The notes under the pieces were generated by a model, which did no database searches, was not told where the DNA came from, and worked only from the letters and a program-made list of their open reading frames with translations. A program made the translations under genes and the position numbers. From contig CALYAR010000009.1 of assembly GCA_944393585.1 (NCBI GenBank), positions 1 to 33,913 of the forward strand: a stretch of 33,913 nt of DNA, in the 5' to 3' direction. Shown piece by piece: positions 31,440 to 33,134 of the stretch (its first letter is position 1; every line of letters begins with the position of its first letter). Source of the stretch: an uncultured Clostridia bacterium. Lineage in GTDB: Bacteria > Bacillota > Clostridia > CALYAR01.

Positions 31440-32255
31440 TTACAGATTCAGATAGGGCTTGATATTTGCCCCGTAAATCTTCACCAAATCTTCCTGCGTT
31501 GCCTTTTTCGAATTTTCAAGCCGCAGGAACTGCGGTTCCATATAGGCAAAAGGAGCGTTTGATCCAATTACAATATGATCTGCCCCAACCTTCTCCAAAA
31601 ACGTATCAAAGTTGTTGTTAATATGGTAGAGATCCAGCTTAAACGTAGAGAAGAACAGATCCTTTTTGTTTGGAATCATATCTTTCGGGTCTGTTGATAA
31701 AAACTGTTCCGGCCAAAACCCGGTGAAAATATAGGACGCTTCCGGTACAGCCTTGACCATTGCAGCCGCTGCTGCAGGGGTAAGATTATTCTGAACATCC
31801 ATCTGATGGCGCTGGCGGAAATCTTCAAAGCCATCGCGGATTCGGATCGGCATGTGATAAGATGCAGCTAATTTTGCCGCTTGAGTGCTCTTTGCGTCCC
31901 CGAGAGTATAACGATGATAGAGCGGAAGCAGTTCAATGCCGGAAAAACCCAGCTCATGCGCTTTTTCAATATCCTTTTCAAATCCGGTATAAGTGGGATT
32001 GATGACGGCAAACAGAGCGTATTTTACTGGGCTTTGCTTGCTTTCTTCAAAGGTTTTCACCGATTCATACAATTCCATGTTTCCGTCCATGGAATTGCGG
32101 TAAAAAATTGCATTAATTGAGGCCGCGCAGAGAACATCGACATTATTTTCCTCTGCTATTTTTGCCAATTCTGCCGGTGTATTGCAAAACAACTTCCGGA
32201 AAGGAAAAGAACCTAAGTAATTGTCTGTATCGATTACAATAGAGTTGTTAATCAT
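31440..32255 (-). CDS. Amidohydrolase-2-fold protein lacking metal ligands
   Basis: 271 aa with the layout of its neighbour (TIM-barrel amidohydrolase-2 family): an N-terminal VIDTDNYLG where H-x-H is expected, LGFSGIELLPLYHRYTLGD in the position of the lysine-containing strand, MPIRIRDG instead of the third His, YIFTGFWPE instead of the fourth, and VIGSNAPF instead of the catalytic Asp. All usual metal-binding residues appear replaced, so it is probably not a hydrolase and may be a partner or regulator of the active paralogue. GGAGG within the last codons of the upstream gene precedes the ATG; the gap is 1 nt. Confidence 0.8.
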   Translation of the reverse strand: MINNSIVIDTDNYLGSFPFRKLFCNTPAELAKIAEENNVDVLCAASINAIFYRNSMDGNMELYESVKTFEESKQSPVKYALFAVINPTYTGFEKDIEKAHELGFSGIELLPLYHRYTLGDAKSTQAAKLAASYHMPIRIRDGFEDFRQRHQMDVQNNLTPAAAAAMVKAVPEASYIFTGFWPEQFLSTDPKDMIPNKKDLFFSTFKLDLYHINNNFDTFLEKVGADHIVIGSNAPFAYMEPQFLRLENSKKATQEDLVKIYGANIKPYLNL

Positions 32256-32256
32256 C

Positions 32257-33078
32257 TTATTTGGCCTCCTTTAAGAAGCGGCGCAGTCCTACGCCCGCCA
32301 GTATTTTTTTCTTATCCTGTTCACTGATGCGTGCGCCCAGGGTCTTTGCGACGCCGGCATTGATGGAACCGTCCGTACCAAAGACAACGCGGTCTGCCCC
32401 TAAATAGCGAACTGCTTCTTCTACGGCTCCCAAATCTACTACACTGCCGCTGATGTCAGTTAAAACGTTCGGGCAATCTGCAATTCCGCGCAGCTGCCAG
32501 AGCCAGTCTCCGCCGCCGGTCACATGTGCCATGAGAATGGTGCAGTCCGGAAAAGCTTTTGCCGCCCGCGCGATTTGCTCACTGTGCGACATATTCGGCT
32601 GTTCTGGGAAGCACTGCAGCGAATAGCCGGCATGGATCAAGATTGGAATGTTAAGTTCAGAGCATTTAGCCAGAATGGGGCGCTGAACCGGATCGTCAAG
32701 TGTATACTGGTTGTAGAGCTTTAAACCGGTCATGCCCAGCTCATTGATGCAGCGGTCGATTTCATCCAATGCCTCTTGACCGAAGCCGGGATCGACATAG
32801 CACATACCCTGGATACGGCCGGGGTATAACTGCATTGCTTCATAGACTAAATCATTTGCCTTGCGGCACATTTCCGGCGTTGCAGTCCCGCGTGTAATCG
32901 GAAGAGAGCAGAGCAGGATATCCATATAGTTGTCATCCGCACCCTGGATCAGGCCGTGCAGCTCATCCATATTGAGAACATCGTTGCCGTTTTCGTCCTT
33001 TGTCATCCATACATGCTCATGCCAGTTGATTACGGAATTGTTTTGGAACAATTTCATTTTCTCGGAGATTGTTGACAT
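32257..33078 (-). CDS. Amidohydrolase-2-family metal-dependent hydrolase
   Basis: 273 aa TIM-barrel enzyme of the amidohydrolase-2 (ACMSD-like) family. The metal ligands are in place: H20-x-H22 (INWHEHVW), H149 (ILIHAGY), H185 (ILMAHVTGGG) and D236 (VFGTDGS), with TGLKLYNQYTLDD between. Family members hydrolyse or decarboxylate cyclic or aromatic carboxylates and lactones. The substrate is unknown; the solute-binding protein next door suggests an imported compound. AAGGAGG lies 8 nt before the ATG. It heads a two-gene operon with its metal-less paralogue. Confidence 0.88.
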   Translation of the reverse strand: MSTISEKMKLFQNNSVINWHEHVWMTKDENGNDVLNMDELHGLIQGADDNYMDILLCSLPITRGTATPEMCRKANDLVYEAMQLYPGRIQGMCYVDPGFGQEALDEIDRCINELGMTGLKLYNQYTLDDPVQRPILAKCSELNIPILIHAGYSLQCFPEQPNMSHSEQIARAAKAFPDCTILMAHVTGGGDWLWQLRGIADCPNVLTDISGSVVDLGAVEEAVRYLGADRVVFGTDGSINAGVAKTLGARISEQDKKKILAGVGLRRFLKEAK

Positions 33079-33134
33079 TTAAAAGCCTCCTTCATTCATT
33101 CTCCTCGAGAGAGGAACAGTGTTGTTCTGTAATC

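Follow-up and report, generated by a model that had tools for sequence, protein, structure and literature searches.

Heteromers that join an active enzyme to a dead paralogue are familiar from trypanosomatids, in which AdoMet decarboxylase and deoxyhypusine synthase work as obligate complexes of this kind (the prozyme enzymes). Those enzymes differ from the proteins described here in their unrelated folds and narrow taxonomic range, and they occur without a bacterial gene pair or fusion. Closer by structure is ACMSD, the active site of which is completed by an Arg of the neighbouring subunit and the monomer of which is inactive (PMC9021598, PMC11650718). A further case is the class A2 ATCase of Pseudomonas, in which a zinc-less pseudo-dihydroorotase is needed for activity (PMC7053772).

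In this study, we examined two adjacent genes from a Clostridia bacterium, A and B, which can be related to both amidohydrolase systems. With the ACMSD / gamma-resorcylate decarboxylase group, A shares its fold and its mononuclear metal ligand pattern; ACMSD, however, forms homodimers that have two active sites each, whereas here a separate gene or domain supplies the second barrel, which is predicted to be metal-free and has invariant residues of its own. The likeness to the Pseudomonas enzyme lies in a chain of amidohydrolase fold that lacks zinc ligands; in Pseudomonas this chain is inactive yet needed by its partner. That partner is an unrelated transcarbamoylase, whereas A is itself a homologous Amidohydro_2 protein. 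Heteromers containing a pseudoenzyme are already known, but in the open-licence papers that we searched we found no named amidohydrolase catalytic/pseudo pair such as A-B, and no biochemical data on any A-B member.

The window, by which we mean the whole stretch of DNA analysed (33,913 nucleotides), is one entire contig of an assembly of 2.8 Mb in 266 contigs. The features of the locus are collected in Table 1.

Table 1. Features of the A-B locus and its immediate neighbourhood, in positions of the window
Feature	Position	Strand	Description
Gene A	32257-33078	minus	Catalytic-type Amidohydro_2 protein, 273 aa; ligands H20, H22, H149, H185, D236, with K120
Gene B	31440-32255	minus	Pseudo-amidohydrolase, 271 aa; no metal ligands
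A/B junction	32256	minus	1 base separating the TAA of A from the ATG of B
Ribosome-binding site of B (GGAGG)	32265-32269	minus	Within the 3' end of A
Ribosome-binding site of A (GGAGG)	33086-33090	minus	
Extracellular solute-binding protein, last 210 residues	33279-33911	minus	Gene runs off the end of the contig; lies some 200 bp upstream of A

The original prediction for this DNA had described the upstream protein as keeping H20-x-H22, H149, H185 and D236 and its partner as carrying non-ligand motifs at each matching place. On a letter-by-letter check the A residues proved exact, and the B motifs were confirmed (DTD at residues 9-11, RIRDG at 138-142, FTGF at 177-180 and GSNA at 231-234); the gap of 1 nt reported between the genes is indeed a single base. 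Together with K120 and with the HxH motif on strand 1, the ligands H149, H185 and D236 give A the metal site pattern of ACMSD and gamma-resorcylate decarboxylase. A scores 103.1 bits against Amidohydro_2 (PF04909; curated cut-off 26.4), whereas B, at 18.2 bits, falls under that cut-off; no NCBIfam model matched B. Eleven of 12 B members match Amidohydro_2 at E values up to 0.01. Profile-profile comparison shows B to be homologous to A (hhalign probability 99.8, E 1e-29, 248 columns), and BLASTP of B directly against A gives a weak alignment (E 2e-4). Among the solved structures searched, none belongs to the family of B, whose closest relatives in the PDB are 5-carboxyvanillate decarboxylases and ACMSD-type enzymes. 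The neighbouring gene had been taken for a solute-binding protein, and in line with this it resembles such proteins beside other A-B pairs (L131, 49% over 41 aa; L132); the C-terminal 210 residues present in the window gave no confident library match alone.

Absence of the pair from other genomes was one of the refutations named in the original prediction, and we found the A-B pair to be kept far beyond this genome. The window's own genome holds four A and four B genes, forming four adjacent pairs: that of the window, one on contig C87 and two in tandem on contig C227. It also holds a fifth, distant A-type match (81 bits) without a B. Genes for a solute-binding lipoprotein and an AraC regulator are found close to the pair on C87. 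When named genomes were scanned with the B alignment, 69 loci were returned, placing B in eight or more bacterial phyla and in Bathyarchaeota; the taxa are Clostridia, other Bacillota, Bathyarchaeota, Poribacteria, Zipacnadia/Armatimonadetes/WS1, Latescibacterota, Hydrogenedentota, Planctomycetes, Chloroflexi, Bacteroidetes and Balneolaceae. Adding other genome loci to those of the scan gives a set of 82 B proteins.

An A gene lies upstream on the same strand for 75 of these 82 B genes, usually with a gap of less than 15 nt or an overlap, overlaps of 4 and 11 nt being commonest. One of the 75 (L090) was counted as a pair with other genes standing between A and B, over about 2 kb. Of the seven B genes without a counted A, six are truncated by the contig start, two of them showing a partial A, and the seventh (L092) has no adjoining A. 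Locus L141 is a generic amidohydrolase match, with its A at a contig end where any following B would be lost. Searches with the B profile and the A profile, both independent of the GHWPFR pattern used in the scan, gave a similar picture. Across 391 genomes of the window's class, 15 of the 16 strong B loci checked have A directly upstream, and the 16th sits at a contig start; in the reverse search with A in Clostridia, B was present at 27 of 29 loci, and both genomes with a solitary A hold full pairs too. The Latescibacterota genome of L092 has one lone A, one lone B and one divergent pair. Adjacency of A and B is near-universal, not absolute: four A genes and one B gene stand alone. Further, the distance matrices of A and B are correlated (r 0.88 over 74 pairs, the best of 1000 permutations reaching 0.15), a value to which shared species history contributes.

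Two variant arrangements were also seen. At L105:5460-8783, three successive A genes are followed by one B, an arrangement in which a single pseudo-subunit might serve several catalytic ones. In Latescibacterota, L179 and L181 represent a more divergent type of A-B pair, with about 140-160 nt of intergenic sequence and weak B scores (123-134 bits).

When A and B are aligned jointly, the ligand columns hold His or Asp in every A protein that covers them (74/74, 74/74, 75/75, 75/75 and 75/75). The 82 B proteins have at the same columns mainly N, Y, P/S/T, N/G and G/H, with others besides at the D236 column, and only one B has a His at the H20 column. Judged from this alignment, ligand loss in B is a family-wide trait. 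In place of the ligands, B has an invariant set of its own, comprising D9, G15, P18, F19, P111, H114 and R147 (each 82/82), with W17 and Y116 (each 80/82) and R20 (78/82) near-invariant. R20 belongs to the GHWPFR loop, H114 and Y116 to PxYHxY, and R147 to D/NxRQRH; by sequence, the invariant residues map to the loops after strands 1, 4 and 5, that is, to the mouth of the barrel. GHWPFR was itself the pattern of the named-genome scan, so the conservation of that motif in the scan loci is partly built in, while D9, P111, H114 and R147 lie outside the pattern. For near pairs, dN/dS is mostly 0.05-0.3 in A and B alike, indicating purifying selection; many comparisons were synonymously saturated and were left uninterpreted. 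Mean identity is 33% for B versus 38% for A, B diverging slightly faster.

Physical association of A and B gains support from natural fusions. On haloarchaeal plasmids of five species (Halomontanus rarus, Natrononativus amylolyticus, Haloprofundus salinisoli, Halosolutus gelatinilyticus and Natronosalvus amylolyticus), A and B form the N-terminal and C-terminal halves of single proteins of 558-567 aa. H. rarus has two further tandem genes of fusion size, as judged by size alone and not by individual scoring. A second lineage, which we call class II as opposed to the A-B order of class I, has the opposite order, pseudo barrel and then active barrel; these are adjacent genes in more than 10 genomes and are fused (about 530 aa) at five loci, one of them in the window's own genome (contig C78). 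All five ligands are intact in the A halves of the haloarchaeal fusions, and nearly all in the active domains of class II. The class II pseudo domains share P111 with B, mostly share H114, have F/Y for Y116 and lack R147. Fusions in both gene orders are strong evidence that the two barrels would work together. The proposal of an obligate catalytic/pseudoenzyme complex in the original prediction is thus supported both by the wide conservation of the pair and by these fusions.

Several class II fusions (L054/L145, which is G000:C78, L159 and L146) have Asp at the place of H149 in the active half, with the other ligands intact; this is possibly a different metal site or a further step of loss. 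In two haloarchaeal species (L173, L174), an A-like amidohydrolase lies immediately 3' of a DUF6282 gene, whose product is a conceivable further degenerate partner.

Structure prediction was applied to both classes. For class I, the L110 pair, from another species, was joined by reading the stop of A as one residue, which leaves a linker of one residue, and was modelled from four paired rows; its halves are well folded (pLDDT 88.9), with alternating strands and helices in B, but at a pTM of 0.56 the model does not fix how they are arranged against each other. The natural class II fusion L143 (AlphaFold) has its halves confidently packed against each other (pLDDT 88.1, pTM 0.90). As a model, it supports a class I complex without proving one. 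For both joined models the top PDB matches belong to the ACMSD / gamma-resorcylate decarboxylase group, and among the PDB chains listed none covers the two halves together (TM by query no higher than 0.39).

As for origin, the class I B proteins and the class II pseudo domains fall together on one side of a branch of the tree, with the active domains apart (SH-aLRT 99). Independent losses in each class are nevertheless compatible with the data by the AU test (p 0.53). A single origin of the pseudo barrels is possible on these sequences.

From these results, we put at roughly 0.77 the probability that A and B are two subunits of one heteromeric amidohydrolase, one metal-bearing and the other a pseudoenzyme. 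Very probably, the pair represents an undescribed family of two-part enzymes that need B as a subunit. A would use a mononuclear metal site and carry out a hydrolysis, decarboxylation or hydration. B would have arisen from an ancient duplication of the barrel of A, with loss of the metal site; selection would have kept it as a partner whose role is structural and probably functional too, in the place that the second subunit occupies in homodimeric relatives. There, it most likely presents R20, H114/Y116 and R147 on the face that it shares with A or towards the substrate. The active site of ACMSD needs an Arg from the neighbouring subunit; an A-B heteromer could have come about when one subunit retained the metal and the other only the contributed face, a role that the invariant Arg and His of B would fit. 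For the window itself, we infer that A and B bind each other, that B is probably non-catalytic, and that residues of B may complete the active site of A. Counted against the heteromer are the pTM of the class I model, the lone A genes in Clostridia and the unlinked A and B in Latescibacterota.

A more specific account can be offered tentatively, and it is somewhat doubtful as a whole. In this account A would give the metal and B the invariant Arg and His, from a metal-free barrel, to a composite site; the split would have taken place once, before the A-B and pseudo-A classes diverged, and the family, obligately heteromeric, would have spread through Bacteria and Archaea and repeatedly become single-chain.

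How much of this role falls to catalysis is where other readings enter. B could be structural or regulatory only, stabilising A or sensing a ligand in its emptied pocket and contributing nothing to catalysis, which amounts to the heteromer without the completion of the site of A. The pseudo-dihydroorotase of ATCase gives this a precedent in the superfamily (PMC7053772), and both the slightly faster divergence of B and the occurrence of solitary A genes are consistent with it; yet Arg and His are kept on the active-site-side loops more strictly than a scaffold needs, and we regard a purely supporting B as possible rather than probable. The same strictly kept polar residues, on the loops after strands 1, 4 and 5, could also be expected if B were a metal-independent enzyme with a new site formed by D9, R20, H114, Y116 and R147, which would carry out a second step on the product of A after hand-over of the substrate. 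Metal-free activity inside the superfamily is known from 2-pyrone-4,6-dicarboxylate lactonase, but this enzyme retains most of the superfamily residues, all of which B has lost. The class II pseudo domains, moreover, share just part of the polar set, and the pair stays fixed while its gene contexts vary widely, a pattern more in keeping with a single enzyme than with two steps. A catalytic B is therefore unlikely.

Ligand loss, and nothing more, is what would be expected if B were a decaying duplicate that lies near A by chance. We give this next to no credence: the same loss with the same invariant replacements in 82 proteins from many phyla, the purifying selection and the natural fusions rule it out, and chance is excluded because the same adjacency and the same ligand loss recur across dozens of species.

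The heteromeric amidohydrolase would act in varied surroundings. Neighbours of the pairs include DegT aminotransferases, Gfo/Idh/MocA oxidoreductases, heparinase II/III, ceramidase-like, isochorismatase-like and AAC(3)-type acetyltransferase proteins, sulfatases, and SusC/D-like and ABC transport, and part of this set is common to Bacteroidetes and Haloarchaea. Such neighbours point to the breakdown of sugars, amino-sugars or acids derived from them, and do not fix the substrate of A-B. The haloarchaeal fusions (L168-L172, L175) and the Bacteroidetes loci have DegT, Gfo/Idh/MocA and ceramidase-like neighbours in common, possibly as markers of a single catabolic pathway that both conserve. Immediately upstream of the two tandem A-B pairs on C227 are a URO-D-like (methyltransferase-type) and an isochorismatase-like gene (L006:3-689 and 713-1546); isochorismatase-like genes related to that of C227 also adjoin Bacteroidetes pairs.

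Pseudoenzyme partners usually surface singly and in narrow lineages. If our reading is true, the A-B pairs would make up a family widespread among prokaryotes, in which members of a very common enzyme superfamily work with a dead twin of their own. Their natural occurrence both as separate genes and as fusions, in either order, would offer a comparative system for the passage from a homodimer to a heteromer of catalytic and non-catalytic subunits. For annotation this calls for caution, as the products labelled 'amidohydrolase family protein' include subunits that are probably unable to work alone.
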